From: a virus
Virus record (IMG/VR): IMGVR_UViG_3300044641_001690
Span: 1-29,152 of that record
Length of the DNA: 29,152 nucleotides
Direction: 5' to 3' (one strand)
The translations under genes were made by a program, and so were the position numbers. This document shows positions 23,206 to 28,846 of this stretch, piece by piece. Each line of letters begins with the position of its first letter. Position 1 is the stretch's first letter. The notes below the pieces were generated by a model. That model did no database searches. It saw nothing but the letters and a program-made list of their open reading frames with translations, and had not been told where the DNA came from.

Positions 23206-23727
23206 ATGATCATTCACGATGTCGAGCTTGAGCGCCTTTGCCGCGAGGAGGCGCTCATTGTTGGGTGGGAGCCCGACCTGATCAACCCAGCCAGCATCGA
23301 CGTGCGGCTCGGGGAGCGCTTGATGATTGAAGATCCAAGGCACGCCAACCTTGAAATCCTTGGCATTAGCAAGCGCACCAAAGAAGACCCGTACTGGCTG
23401 CAGCCGGGCGCCTTTGTACTGGCTGAGACCATTGAGATCTTCAACATGCCGGAGAACGTCGCCGGCCAGTTCGTGCTGAAGTCCAGCCGCGCGCGTGAAG
23501 GCCTGAGCCATGCCTTGGCTGGCTATCTGGACCCGAGCTGGTGCGGCAGCCGCCTCACGCTGGAGCTGCACAACATCCGCAAGCACCACGCGGTCCCGCT
23601 GTGGCCAGGCCTGCGCATCGGTCAGGTGGTCTACCACCGGATGGCGGGAACTCCGCAGCGCAGCTACGCCGAGGTGGGGCACTACAACCACCAGCCCCGC
23701 GTCATGCCCAGCTGGGAGGCGGCGTAA
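23206..23727 (+). CDS. dcd: dCTP deaminase / dUTPase-family enzyme
   Basis: A 173-aa protein of the trimeric Dcd/Dut fold. It has INPASIDVRLG (27-37), the substrate motif SSRAREGL (93-100, compare SSLARLG in Dcd) and LTLELHN with Glu120, matching the catalytic Glu of Dcd. The product would be dUTP from dCTP, or dUMP if bifunctional, feeding thymidylate supply for phage DNA. It starts 7 nt after the endolysin, far from any replication gene in the window. Whether it deaminates or only hydrolyses dUTP cannot be decided by eye. Confidence 0.85.
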   Translation: MIIHDVELERLCREEALIVGWEPDLINPASIDVRLGERLMIEDPRHANLEILGISKRTKEDPYWLQPGAFVLAETIEIFNMPENVAGQFVLKSSRAREGLSHALAGYLDPSWCGSRLTLELHNIRKHHAVPLWPGLRIGQVVYHRMAGTPQRSYAEVGHYNHQPRVMPSWEAA

Positions 23728-23728
23728 G

Positions 23729-24241
23729 ATGACAGGGCTGCGGCGCGTCAACGCCCAGCCCCTGACCACTGCTCTACCAGTGATGACTGAATCCTACGCC
23801 GCTGAACGGTGGGCACCCATTGTCGGCTTTGAAGGCCTTTACGAGGTCTCAAATCAAGGACGGGTGAGAAGCCTCGATCGAGTCGTGCAGCTGACGGGAC
23901 ACCCCACACTCAAGGCGCGCACCATGAAAGGGCGCATTCTGTTTCAGAAGACGAACCGCCCCGCAGCGGGCGCCTACGCAAGAAAACAGGTGGCGTTGTG
24001 GAAAAACAACACAGAGCACACGATGAACGTGGCGCGGCTGGTTGCTGAGGCATTCCTGCCAAACCCCGACGCCATGCCGTTGGTGCTTCACCTGGATGAC
24101 GATGCCACCAACAACCGCATCGAAAATCTGCAGTGGGGAGACCGCGCCGAGAACGTGCGGCAAGCTGTGGAGCGAAACCGTTTTCCAAGCGGCTCGCGGC
24201 ATCACAGCTACACCCACGGCAGATACGTCCGCCGGGGCTAG
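23729..24241 (+). CDS. HNH homing endonuclease with NUMOD4 motif
   Basis: A 170-aa protein from ATG 23729, one nt after the dcd stop and with GGGAGG about 10 nt upstream. ATG 23783 is an alternative that would begin just before the conserved part. Residues 28-52 are NUMOD4 (WAPIVGFEGLYEVSNQGRVRSL), a DNA-binding element of phage homing nucleases. Residues ~100-142 are an HNH_3-type core (VARLVAEAFLPNP, LVLHLDDDATNNRIENLQW). It probably acts as a selfish element inserted between dcd and the integrase. It converges on the integrase, and the two stops share the palindrome GCTAGC. Confidence 0.85.
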   Translation: MTGLRRVNAQPLTTALPVMTESYAAERWAPIVGFEGLYEVSNQGRVRSLDRVVQLTGHPTLKARTMKGRILFQKTNRPAAGAYARKQVALWKNNTEHTMNVARLVAEAFLPNPDAMPLVLHLDDDATNNRIENLQWGDRAENVRQAVERNRFPSGSRHHSYTHGRYVRRG

Positions 24242-25332
24242 CCGTTGATCGCATCCCCGATCAACGCGGCGGCCGCCTTGGCTGCATCATCCATCAGGTA
24301 GGCGTATCGGGCGGTGGTCTGCGGCGACGCATGACCGAGCAGCTGCCCGATCTGGCTGAGCGAGACACCAGCCGACAGACCTACGGAGGCGTATGAACGG
24401 CGCAGATCGTGAACGGTGAGGCCGGTGATGCTGGCGCGCTTCAGCAGCTCCAGCCATAGCTTCTGGTATCCGACAAGGTGGCCGCTGCCGTCGCCGGCGA
24501 TGATCCATGCCGTGTTCGACTTGGAGCGCAGCTCCTGCAGGATCTGAACCGCTGCCGGGTGAAGCCGCACCACGCGCTCCTCGCCGGTTTTCTCGCCGGT
24601 CTTATGGCGCTCGACCGGTATCACCAGAAGGCTGCCGGGCTCATCGAACCACTCCCAGCGGCCGCGGCAGATCTCCCCGACGCGGCAGCCGGTGAGCAGC
24701 AGCAGGCGGATCAGTTGCGTGAACCGCCAGCGCAGGGGCGTGGTCGCCATGTCGCTGAGCGCAGCCAGCAGCCGCTGCCGCTCGGCTGGTGATAGGTGTC
24801 GCTTGCGGACCCGTTCGGTCAGCTTGGCAACCTTGCCGCATGGATTGGACCCTTCCGGTCGCAGCTGCCACAGCTCGGCCTTGTTGAAGGCAGCGCGGAC
24901 CGACTGCAGGACGCGGTTCCGCATGATCGGCTTGATGCTGTCCAGAAGATCAAGGATGTCGCGGCGCTGCACGTCCCCCACGCGCCGGCGGCCAATGGAG
25001 GGCAGCACATGGAGCTTCCACATGCGGCGGTAGGCGTCGGCTGTGGAGGCGCGGAGCTTGCTGTAGTGGCGGGCATCCATCAAGGCGTGCAGATCGGCCA
25101 CAGATGGCTCCGCGGCTGCCCGCTGAGGTGCTCTGCCTTGGACCGCCTCCGAGAGGAGCTTGAGGGCTTCCCTGCGCGCGGCGACGCGGTTGAGCACATC
25201 GGCACGGCCAATCTTCTGGGTGCGCTGCCGGCCGCCTTGCTCCCTGAAGCGCAGATACCAGGTCCGCACTCCAGACGGCAGGCTGAGGATCCCAAGGCCA
25301 GGCACGGAACTGTCGGCTTCCCACTGCTTCAT
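24238..25332 (-). CDS. int: Tyrosine integrase
   Basis: A 364-aa site-specific recombinase. From the chosen start the catalytic residues are Arg217 (TGCRVGEI), Lys244, His308 and Arg311 (HDLRRSY), His334 (LLGH) and nucleophile Tyr343 (ARYAYL); all are present. Residues ~1-75 form an arm-binding domain of DUF4102-like character (WYLRFREQGGRQRTQKIGRA), followed by a core-binding SAM-like domain (~75-165). I chose ATG 25332, with GGAGG 5 nt upstream, over ATG 25344, which has none. It faces away from the attP-like site, whose repeats lie in its promoter region, suggesting that integrase may repress itself. Confidence 0.93.
   Translation of the reverse strand: MKQWEADSSVPGLGILSLPSGVRTWYLRFREQGGRQRTQKIGRADVLNRVAARREALKLLSEAVQGRAPQRAAAEPSVADLHALMDARHYSKLRASTADAYRRMWKLHVLPSIGRRRVGDVQRRDILDLLDSIKPIMRNRVLQSVRAAFNKAELWQLRPEGSNPCGKVAKLTERVRKRHLSPAERQRLLAALSDMATTPLRWRFTQLIRLLLLTGCRVGEICRGRWEWFDEPGSLLVIPVERHKTGEKTGEERVVRLHPAAVQILQELRSKSNTAWIIAGDGSGHLVGYQKLWLELLKRASITGLTVHDLRRSYASVGLSAGVSLSQIGQLLGHASPQTTARYAYLMDDAAKAAAALIGDAING
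24244..24265. other. Perfect inverted repeat at the HNH/integrase convergence
   Basis: GTTGATCG (24244-24251) and CGATCAAC (24258-24265) form an 8-bp stem with a 6-nt loop, 2 nt after the HNH stop and inside the last codons of the integrase. No T tract follows on either strand, so it is not a standard terminator. It could still end or stabilise one or both converging transcripts. Confidence 0.5.
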
Positions 25333-25343
25333 CGCTTCCTCCA

Positions 25344-25394
25344 TTCGCGCACTATTCGCGCAGATTTGCGCGAACGGCCGTGAGATTGCGCGAA
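25344..25394. repeat. Left arm-type repeat cluster of attP
   Basis: Four copies of the octamer TTCGCGCA: two direct (25344-25351, 25355-25362; 11 bp apart) and two inverted (25367-25374, 25387-25394; 20 bp apart, each extended by CGGC and GTGA). Spacings of one and two helical turns suit integrase arm-type binding. The cluster also covers the DNA just upstream of the integrase start. Confidence 0.8.
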
Positions 25395-25405
25395 CGGCGG
25401 TGAAG

Positions 25406-25411
25406 TGTCAA
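25406..25411 (-). promoter_or_regulatory. Possible -35 element of the integrase promoter
   Basis: The minus strand reads TTGACA, a perfect -35 box. The hexamer 17 nt downstream is CAATCT, a poor -10, and it overlaps an inverted arm repeat (25387-25394). A promoter here would be covered by integrase binding. Only the -35 match is solid. Confidence 0.25.
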
Positions 25412-25464
25412 TCCGACCAAGAACCGGTAAGCTATTGAAATAGTGAGATTCCGTGAGAAAGAAG

Positions 25465-25514
25465 TGGCGACCCCGGAAGGATTCGAACCTTCGACCTAGT
25501 GCTTAGAAGGCACT
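25465..25514 (-). other. 3' half of tRNA-Arg(UCU): attachment-site core
   Basis: On the minus strand the anticodon arm is AGTGC, loop CTTCTAA, GCACT, giving anticodon TCT. It is followed by AGGTC, a T-arm GAAGG TTCGAAT CCTTC, acceptor strand CGGGGTC, then GCCA at 25465-25468. The partner acceptor strand GACCCCG and a proper D-arm are absent upstream, so this is not a working tRNA gene. A phage attP normally carries exactly this part of the host tRNA, so that integration restores the gene. Repeats flank it on both sides, and the integrase gene adjoins it. Confidence 0.85.
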
Positions 25515-25550
25515 TTGCCGCTTCGTTTATACCAACGAAAACAACAGCTT

Positions 25551-25808
25551 CTATAGCCGCGTCGCCCGTTCGCGCACTATTCGCGCAGGCGCCTCAGCCG
25601 GATCATCCAGCGCGATCATGCGGTAGTCATCGACCCCGTGGATCTCCGCCCAGTGCTGCGCGGCGATGTGGGTGGGGAACGGCCCGACGTGCCACGGGCC
25701 GAGGTTGAGGATGTAGGTCATGGGTGGATGAGTGCGACAGTCGGACAGGTGCTGCTTGATGGCAGCGGCCATGGCTGCCAGATCATCCTCGCTGAAGGTG
25801 ATGGTCAT
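25551..25808 (-). CDS. Small early protein (85 aa), unknown
   Basis: From ATG 25808 the protein reads MTITFSEDDLAAMAAAIKQHL, then TYILNLGPWHVGPFPTHIAA and QHWAEIHGVDDYRMIALDDP. A second in-frame ATG at 25721 is preceded by a CACCC leader like those of other early genes, and would give a 56-aa protein. Both may be used. The last ten residues are encoded by the right arm repeat. It overlaps the preceding gene by 4 bp (ATGA). Function not recognised. Confidence 0.55.
   Translation of the reverse strand: MTITFSEDDLAAMAAAIKQHLSDCRTHPPMTYILNLGPWHVGPFPTHIAAQHWAEIHGVDDYRMIALDDPAEAPARIVRERATRL
25569..25588. repeat. Right arm-type repeat of attP
   Basis: A perfect 20-bp direct copy of 25344-25363, containing two TTCGCGCA octamers 11 bp apart. 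It lies 55 bp beyond the tRNA-like core on the side opposite the integrase, as a P'-type arm would. It also encodes part of the C-terminus (RIVRERATRL) of the adjacent small gene. Confidence 0.85.
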
Positions 25809-27629: not shown

Positions 27630-27859
27630 CGCCTTTTCTCCTCCAGCTCGCTGGCCAGCACTGCTGCAGATCGCAGCAGCGTGGTCAGTGTCATCGGCCT
27701 CATGTTCCGGTCAGAGGCGTAGCGCAATGCCCAACGAAAACCCATCGACACATTGCCGCCACCCAGTTCACGCGCTTGCTCGATTTCCTCACGGCTCATC
27801 CTGATGTTCACCGTGAAGTTCCGGCCTTTGCCCTTTGGGCGCCGATCGCTCAGGACCAT
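27626..27859 (-). CDS. Possible ribbon-helix-helix DNA-binding protein (77 aa)
   Basis: From ATG 27859: MVLSDRRPKGKGRNFTVNIR, then MSREEIEQARELGGGNVSMG and FRWALRYASDRN. A basic start, a beta strand (FTVNIRMS), a helix, and then GNVSMGFRWALRYA, where ribbon-helix-helix repressors often have GN-S-GIR-AL, suggest an Arc/MetJ-like regulator. A further helix follows (LTTLLRSAAVLASELEEKRR). If correct, it is the only visible candidate regulator in the window. The longer start at 27898 overlaps the upstream gene more and is less likely. Confidence 0.6.
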   Translation of the reverse strand: MVLSDRRPKGKGRNFTVNIRMSREEIEQARELGGGNVSMGFRWALRYASDRNMRPMTLTTLLRSAAVLASELEEKRR

Positions 27860-28116
27860 CGGCCTCCCAGCAGGAAACGACGGCAGACGGCGATGCACTG
27901 CTGCGCGTGCTTCTCCGCCAGGTGGCTCTCGGCTTCACCGATCGCGGTGACGCAGGCGGCGTGAAGATCCGGGTAGGAGGTGTCGCGGAAGTTGGCAGCA
28001 ATGTCGCGGCAGAACTCCTCCCATAGCCCGGTGTAGGTGCCGCAGGTGCGGCCGCTGGAGGCGTAGAGCGCGTCCATCATGTTGGCGCGCTGCTGGTCGA
28101 GTTGGACGCGGTTCAT
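27850..28116 (-). CDS. Helical early protein (88 aa), unknown
   Basis: MNRVQLDQQRANMMDALYAS, SGRTCGTYTGLWEEFCRDIA, ANFRDTSYPDLHAACVTAIG, then AESHLAEKHAQQCIAVCRRF. A mostly helical protein with five Cys, none in a clear metal pattern. It overlaps the next gene by 10 bp and the preceding one by ATGA. Function not recognised. Confidence 0.6.
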   Translation of the reverse strand: MNRVQLDQQRANMMDALYASSGRTCGTYTGLWEEFCRDIAANFRDTSYPDLHAACVTAIGEAESHLAEKHAQQCIAVCRRFLLGGRWS

Positions 28117-28313
28117 GGTTGGATCAGTGCTTGCAGGATGTTGAGCAGCTCCTCGCGGCGCGCGGAGATGTGCGGGTGGCTGGGCATGTTGGCCAGCTGA
28201 TCAAGGCGAGCGCGGAGCAGCGTGGCCAGCCGCAGGCGTTCCTCCTGCTGGCCGGCGTTGAACATGCCGGAGTCGCTGATCAGGGCTTCCAGTTTGGCGC
28301 GGATGTGATCCAT
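28113..28313 (-). CDS. Helical early protein (66 aa), unknown
   Basis: MDHIRAKLEALISDSGMFNA, then GQQEERLRLATLLRARLDQL and ANMPSHPHISARREELLNIL. Strong heptad character suggests an oligomer or coiled-coil adaptor. The start sits in a TGATG overlap with the upstream stop, and the stop overlaps the next start (ATGA). Function not recognised. Confidence 0.6.
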   Translation of the reverse strand: MDHIRAKLEALISDSGMFNAGQQEERLRLATLLRARLDQLANMPSHPHISARREELLNILQALIQP

Positions 28314-28537
28314 CAGGCGACCTCCACCACGGCGCCAGGCCAGCGTGCCTCGGCGTATCGGATCGCGTGCTTCTTGGTTTCGGCGCGGGTGATCCAGGTC
28401 ATCGGCTGAGCTCCGGGCTTGTAGACGATCAGCTTGTAGTCACGGGTCCGGGCTTTGGGCCGCGGCCGGCTGATGCCTTCACCGTGGCGGCTGGTAGTGG
28501 TCTCCTCGATCCACTGGAACGGAACGATCTCACGCAT
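28313..28537 (-). CDS. Small basic early protein (74 aa), unknown
   Basis: The start is ATG 28537 (MREIVPFQWIEETTTSRHGE). A basic linker (RPRPKARTRDYK) leads to LIVYKPGAQPMTWITRAETK, then KHAIRYAEARWPGAVVEVA. The C-terminal half looks like a small alpha-beta domain with AETKKHAIRYAEARWPGA, a helix seen in several small phage proteins. The leader contains CACCGACCCATCC. Function not recognised. Confidence 0.6.
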   Translation of the reverse strand: MREIVPFQWIEETTTSRHGEGISRPRPKARTRDYKLIVYKPGAQPMTWITRAETKKHAIRYAEARWPGAVVEVA

Positions 28538-28706
28538 GGATGGATGGGTCGGTGACAGTTGCAGGGTTGAGCCATTCGATCTGGTCCCACCACGGCATCC
28601 ACTCAAGGGACGCCTTGCTTTTGGCCTCGGCAAGGTTGTGCGCCCAGACGCACTCGATCACGTTGGCCGACGGGATCTGGAAGTAGAAGCGGCGGAGCTT
28701 GGTCAT
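28530..28706 (-). CDS. Small early protein (58 aa), unknown
   Basis: MTKLRRFYFQIPSANVIECV, then WAHNLAEAKSKASLEWMPWW and DQIEWLNPATVTDPSIHA. The strand-helix plan (RFYFQI..., WAHNLAEAKSKA) recurs in small phage proteins that I cannot name. Its ATG overlaps the preceding stop (ATGA) and its end overlaps the next start by 8 bp. Function not recognised. Confidence 0.6.
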   Translation of the reverse strand: MTKLRRFYFQIPSANVIECVWAHNLAEAKSKASLEWMPWWDQIEWLNPATVTDPSIHA

Positions 28707-28846
28707 GGCCGGAGCGGCGCATGGCACGCCGGGTGATCGTTGTGGGCTTGCACGGCAGCCTCACGGCCGCCGGCGTAACCAGCTGCATAGATAGCGGCGA
28801 GCGTCACCAGGGCGGTGATGCGGTTGATCCAAGGATTGGTGATCAT
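28703..28846 (-). CDS. Tiny membrane protein (47 aa)
   Basis: From ATG 28846: MITNPWINRITALVTLAAIY, then AAGYAGGREAAVQAHNDHPA and CHAPLRP. One membrane segment (ITALVTLAAIYAAGYAGG) is followed by a polar tail with three His and one Cys. The leader before the start is a pure C/A tract with repeated CCACC, without Shine-Dalgarno. It is coupled to the next gene by ATGA. A membrane anchor for a small complex is possible; function unknown. Confidence 0.6.
   Translation of the reverse strand: MITNPWINRITALVTLAAIYAAGYAGGREAAVQAHNDHPACHAPLRP

Follow-up and report, generated by a model that had tools for sequence, protein, structure and literature searches.

In its structural genes, the phage analyzed here is closest to the Synechococcus siphoviruses S-LBS1, S-CBS1 and S-CBS3. 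S-CBS1 and S-CBS3 carry no integrase, and 14-bp repeats have been proposed in connection with the integration of S-LBS1 (PMC6157547). Comparable attachment regions are known from lambda-type attP sites, in which arm repeats flank a core, the integrase carries an N-terminal arm-binding domain and IHF-like sites lie in between, and from the attL of KplE1, whose integrase, IntS, is autoregulated and whose recombination region overlaps the integrase promoter (PMC2951348). Fionnbharth-type mycobacteriophages show tRNA-dependent lysogeny: their tRNA-Lys(UUU) core is very short, and the phage carries the whole gene for this tRNA (PMC10865867); a prophage type of Sinorhizobium is claimed to show tRNA-dependent lysogeny as well (PMC12429752).

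The window, by which we mean the whole stretch of DNA analyzed, is a 29,152-base IMG/VR virus contig that is apparently partial; the portal gene lies close to its start, and the window proteins examined included no terminase. Its portal protein is 59-64% identical to those of S-LBS1, S-CBS1 and S-CBS3 and the gene order is collinear; the tail proteins are related, as are the endolysin (67%) and the HNH and small genes near it. Head, tail and lysis genes (structural genes, endolysin) lie to the left of the integrase gene, while an HNH gene, a DUF3310 gene and small genes homologous to gp25, gp27 and gp30 of S-CBS3 lie to the right of the attachment site. By comparison, the integrase is located elsewhere in the S-LBS1 genome, and neither the window, a partial contig, nor the related loci contain the RpoD-like sigma factor of S-CBS1, S-CBS3 and S-LBS1; at 27850-28760, the window is without the sigma factor that Synechococcus phages carry between the homologues of S-CBS3 gp27 and gp30. 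The octamer array of the window was not found in any of the three phages. The 14-bp repeats of S-LBS1 were rejected as an equivalent site since, unlike the window site, they lie inside the portal and helicase genes. Just before the integrase gene of the window, a NUMOD4/HNH_3 homing-endonuclease-like gene (23510-24241, + strand) overlaps the 3' end of a dCTP deaminase gene (23206-23727).

Positions 25344-25588 very probably represent the complete attP of a temperate siphovirus that targets a bacterial tRNA-Arg(UCU) gene (Table 1). The original prediction that this site is attP, and not attL or attR, is upheld because both arm clusters and the integrase are present and phage genes flank both sides; moreover, 57 further distinct attPs are alike in layout. 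It is highly improbable that the region is instead the end of an integrated prophage or a host/phage chimera. While a tRNA-like sequence beside an integrase is also typical of attL, and ARAGORN calls a full tRNA-Arg(TCT) at 25465-25542, the 5' half of this tRNA is degenerate, the P' arm and phage genes follow beyond the tRNA-like stretch, the near-identical contig L002 has the same join, and the layout recurs in the 57 further attPs.

Table 1. Features of the integrase and attP region in the window.
Feature	Position	Strand	Basis
Tyrosine integrase, 368 aa	24238..25344	-	Pfam PF00589, PF13356; PHROG phrog_1
Arm-type octamer TTCGCGCA, integrase-side arm, site 1 (outermost)	25344..25351	+	exact; kept in 58 distinct modules
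Arm-type octamer, integrase-side arm, site 2	25355..25362	+	exact copy of TTCGCGCA
Arm-type octamer, integrase-side arm, site 3 (inverted)	25367..25374	-	exact copy of TTCGCGCA
CAATCT, weak candidate -10 of the int promoter	25383..25388	-	sequence
Arm-type octamer, integrase-side arm, site 4 (inverted), overlapping the weak -10 hexamer	25387..25394	-	exact copy
TTGACA (perfect), candidate -35 of the int promoter	25406..25411	-	sequence
IHF-consensus-like site TTTCAATAGCTTA, one mismatch to WATCAANNNNTTR, integrase side	25428..25440	-	consensus match
attP core: tRNA-Arg(UCU) 3' part, anticodon stem (5' strand) through CCA	25465..25514	-	ARAGORN and sequence comparison
Anticodon loop CTTCTAA in perfect stem AGTGC/GCACT; presumed 7-bp overlap for strand exchange	25503..25509	-	sequence
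Degenerate tRNA 5' side (phage sequence, no cloverleaf)	25515..25542	-	Rfam score and fold prediction
Weak IHF-like site, two mismatches, at the offset of a perfect site in L004	25539..25551	-	consensus match
Small conserved ORF with the P' arm as its C-terminal codons	25551..25808	-	sequence; homologues in family contigs
Arm-type octamer, distal (P') arm, first	25569..25576	+	exact copy of TTCGCGCA
Arm-type octamer, distal (P') arm, second	25580..25587	+	exact copy of TTCGCGCA

The tRNA-Arg(UCU) 3' half with its CCA end, which had been read from the sequence, is real and is covered by the ARAGORN call; no tRNA besides this core was found in the window. The tRNA-like stretch as a whole scores 27.3 bits against an Rfam tRNA gathering score of 29; the anticodon stem and T arm are perfect, the D arm is missing and the acceptor is poor, and the predicted fold of the 5' side is a simple hairpin and not a cloverleaf. 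A complete phage tRNA-Arg gene was rejected, as the 5' half does not fold as a tRNA. It could still be argued from the ARAGORN call and from the perfect anticodon stem and T arm that the phage encodes a possibly functional tRNA-Arg here and that the octamers serve transcription regulation only, in particular as the two bases that set it apart from alphaproteobacterial tRNA-Arg compensate each other within the T stem, a pattern suggestive of selection on the RNA. However, selection on the 3' half is also expected if the host tRNA must be rebuilt, the missing D arm, the poor acceptor and the score below the Rfam cut-off speak against a functional gene, and in the sibling contig L004 the 5' side is not tRNA-like either, which leaves this explanation with very little probability. 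As an attP core, the 3' half supports tRNA-Arg(UCU) as the predicted target, together with the core of L004, which matches genuine tRNA-Arg(UCU) genes of Hyphomicrobiales and Sphingomonas without a difference over 48-50 bp, the longest match being to the Rhizobiales genome bin Loclat.

The octamers and the direct repeat around this core are far beyond chance. All six octamer copies that had been described are exact; only their spacing, given as 11 or 20 bp, was slightly loose, the start-to-start spacings being 11, 12, 20 and 11 bp. The perfect 20-bp direct repeat, TTCGCGCACTATTCGCGCAG, flanks the tRNA 3' half as described (25344-25363 and 25569-25588). Scatter of the octamer through the rest of the genome had been set as a test beforehand, and just two exact copies of TTCGCGCA were found outside 25344-25588 in the whole 29 kb window. 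In 200 first-order Markov simulations, the octamer count was 2.2 per window with a maximum of 2 in 245 bp, and 50 simulations gave no perfect 20-bp direct repeat within 300 bp.

Since the octamers are kept down to approximately 54% integrase identity, we infer that they are integrase arm sites. By analogy with the lambda paradigm, the N-terminal domain of the integrase would be bound to the octamers and its catalytic domain to the anticodon stem, while bends introduced on both sides by an IHF-type protein (IHF or HU) would fold the arms back onto the core. The partner attB would lie in a bacterial tRNA-Arg(UCU) gene; strand exchange with it would span the 7-bp anticodon loop, and the phage 3' half would rebuild the tRNA-Arg at the junction beside int. 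The site resembles lambda-type attPs in its arm repeats and arm-binding integrase domain and, with one candidate IHF-like site of one mismatch and a weak one of two, possibly also in bending sites between arms and core, but differs from them in arm sequence (TTCGCGCA, with 4 + 2 putative sites) and in having a tRNA anticodon arm as its core.

The integrase combines an N-terminal Arm-DNA-bind_3 (arm-binding) domain with a Phage_integrase domain, in which the catalytic residues R (GCRVGE), K (HKTGEK), H-x-x-R (HDLRRS), H (LGHASP) and Y (ARYAYL) can be recognized. Its start is more likely the ATG at 25330-25332, behind GGAGG at 25338-25342, and the cluster of four octamers lies directly upstream. 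This cluster had been proposed to cover the integrase promoter region; a perfect TTGACA and an octamer lying on the presumed -10 favor this proposal, but the -10 itself is poor and a promoter scan gave no match for an int promoter. Because the inner octamer overlaps this weak -10, it is plausible that integrase bound there represses its own promoter, in a negative autoregulation similar to that of KplE1. As in KplE1 (PMC2951348), the recombination region would overlap the integrase promoter, here through an arm site on the presumed -10, but the putative promoter of the window is weak by consensus. No excisionase or recombination directionality factor and no repressor were identified in the window.

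The attP family to which this site belongs is uncharted, though the kind of site is known: the same handles are kept while the target tRNA is swapped, and in one branch a replacement tRNA gene is present in full. When viral contigs were scanned for a pattern with the P'-arm motif, 93 stretches matched; combined with integrase relatives, these yielded 58 distinct complete modules including the window. The 57 further distinct attPs, which belong to the same integrase family, share the arm layout, the apparent constancy of which is inflated by relatedness among the sequences, and differ in their cores (Lys, Phe, fMet, Thr, Asn, Gly and Arg). Integrases 54-65% identical adjoin the same octamers in the same order at cores of tRNA-Arg(UCU) (L004), tRNA-Thr(UGU) (L005 and L006) and tRNA-Lys(UUU) (L007 and L008). 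On the integrase side, the octamer order is (-) (-) (+) (+) at -32, -12, 0 and +11; the P' arm contains two sites with a spacing of 11 bp. IHF-like sites with at most one mismatch occur at fixed offsets in 31/58 and 30/58 modules on the two sides, compared to approximately 2% and 4% in shuffled sequences. The tRNA 3' half points toward the P' arm in 53 modules and toward int in five, including the window; these five form one supported clade in the integrase tree.

Distances within the modules appear to follow the helical repeat of DNA. From the anticodon loop to the integrase arm, the distance is 91 bp in 51 of the 53 reverse-orientation modules and 92 bp in two, while from the P' arm to the loop these 53 modules show only distances of 65-66, 87, 97-98 or 107-109 bp, in steps of approximately 10.6 bp. 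Compared with uniform distances, the four classes give P ~7e-5 at a 10.5-bp period, a value that is indicative as the classes were defined after inspection. The tRNA half of 43-44 nt itself amounts to approximately four helical turns. In the clade of the window, the integrase-side distance is 102 or 112-114 bp, approximately one turn apart.

In two sister pairs (L102 and L118, L115 and L078), the attPs resemble each other from the anticodon loop toward the integrase but differ from the loop toward the P' arm. Because the sisters agree on one side and differ on the other, the P' half seems to have been exchanged at the core. In other relatives (L056, L074, L109, L112, L113, L129, L063/L064/L120 and L128), what is left of the integrase gene, either its last codons or a C-terminal remnant, comes directly after the P' arm; these scars of integrase loss suggest a repeated change from a temperate to a lytic life style. 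That the P' arm forms the 3' end of the small ORF at 25551-25808 may explain arm survival in integrase-less relatives.

Twelve contigs, representing 11 distinct attPs, have a core consisting only of the Lys(UUU) anticodon loop (L053, L059, L068, L072, L076, L101, L102, L104, L111, L115, L122 and L130). In all 12, a complete tRNA-Lys(UUU) gene begins just beyond the P' arm: its 5' end is 3-9 bp from the arm on the outer side and, measured from the loop, 91-97 bp downstream, and the gene runs in line with the host gene that integration would disrupt. Among 54 other loci, a tRNA was called only in L073, on its own attP core, and on whole records a complete tRNA was found in 12/12 short-core versus 0/12 full-core contigs. 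The integrase tree requires at least four changes between the two core states; the four independent pairs all agree, although a sign test on four pairs cannot reach significance. With a short core and a phage tRNA of the same isotype, the short-core relatives show the layout of tRNA-dependent lysogeny; the window, with its full 3' half and no separate tRNA gene, does not. The placement of the tRNA-Lys gene in line with the interrupted host gene suggests that the replacement tRNA-Lys(UUU) may be driven by the host tRNA promoter. The short-core relatives, though not the window, thus resemble the Fionnbharth-type phages in core and tRNA, but their tRNA gene abuts the P' arm, whereas that of Fionnbharth overlaps a protein-coding gene and has its own promoter (PMC10865867).

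Taken together, these observations could be read as one system, in which constant arms are combined with a core that is replaced at the anticodon loop, with at least seven tRNA targets, one orientation flip and P' spacing in helical phase. In addition, there would be at least four changes in the tree between a full 3' half and a reduced core with a complete tRNA-Lys(UUU) at the P' arm, and transcription from the promoter of the disrupted host tRNA gene would continue into the replacement gene, i.e., tRNA-dependent lysogeny by promoter capture. We consider the chances of this joint reading holding in its entirety to be about even.

The host into which the phage would integrate is probably an alphaproteobacterium. 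A host tRNA-Arg(UCU) gene matching 25465-25514 had been predicted; the exact core (46-bp query) was absent from all genome contigs scanned, and the best matches, in Alphaproteobacteria, show two compensatory T-stem differences. A relaxed Arg core pattern matched 37 records, all titled Alphaproteobacteria or just Proteobacteria (among 84,980 species), and of the matches that share the anticodon stem of the window, most deviate from it at the T-stem pair alone, C:G versus A:T. Furthermore, the fMet and Phe cores of relatives have exact counterparts in genomes of Alphaproteobacteria.

The portal, tail and endolysin proteins are closest to those of S-LBS1, S-CBS1 and S-CBS3, and the tail J protein is closest to that of Prochlorococcus phages, which could indicate that the attP is real but that the host is a freshwater Synechococcus or Cyanobium and the alphaproteobacterial core match is misleading. 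This is rather unlikely, as the relaxed Arg pattern occurred only in the records named above, and the anticodon stems of the fMet cores read CCTGA, like those of Alphaproteobacteria, rather than CCCGA, the stem of Prochlorococcus phage P-SS2. Moreover, the full-length cores, elongator ones included, template CCA as Proteobacteria do, whereas Synechococcus genomes template CCA only for initiator tRNAs (PMC5143459), and the sigma factor of the three phages was absent from every family locus examined, even though its flanking genes were retained in more than 50. It is the missing sigma factor and the CCA-bearing cores that make an alphaproteobacterial host the more likely one.

The predicted prophages bounded by the core sequence did not materialize, as no lysogen, attL or attR was found in the genomes scanned. 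The Lys core had no match with up to three mismatches in 14 and 19 alphaproteobacterial genomes, except for one with three, and the Arg core was not found in 19 genomes with exact or near fMet or Phe cores. The arm pattern gave a single match (L181) in 249 genomes of one alphaproteobacterial order, which was rejected as a lysogen and taken as a chance match, as it has no integrase, no tRNA and no octamer in inverted orientation. Integrases of Alphaproteobacteria with 37-43% identity to that of the window were set aside as a different subfamily, with no octamer clusters and no complete tRNA in the stretch examined. A short viral contig, L003, starts with a related tRNA-Arg(UCU) 3' end (1-48), with an integrase gene apparently beside it, and is a different element with the same kind of target tRNA.

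The interest of these findings lies mainly in the attP family rather than in the window site. They show that temperate relatives of the S-CBS-like aquatic siphoviruses, a group familiar mainly as lytic cyanophages, are widespread, and that the target of the integration module, readable from sequence, provides a hint about the host that is independent of the structural genes. From the natural variation in this attP family, the spacing rules of a lambda-type intasome can be deduced, and close relatives with and without a replacement tRNA make tRNA-dependent lysogeny directly testable outside Actinobacteria.
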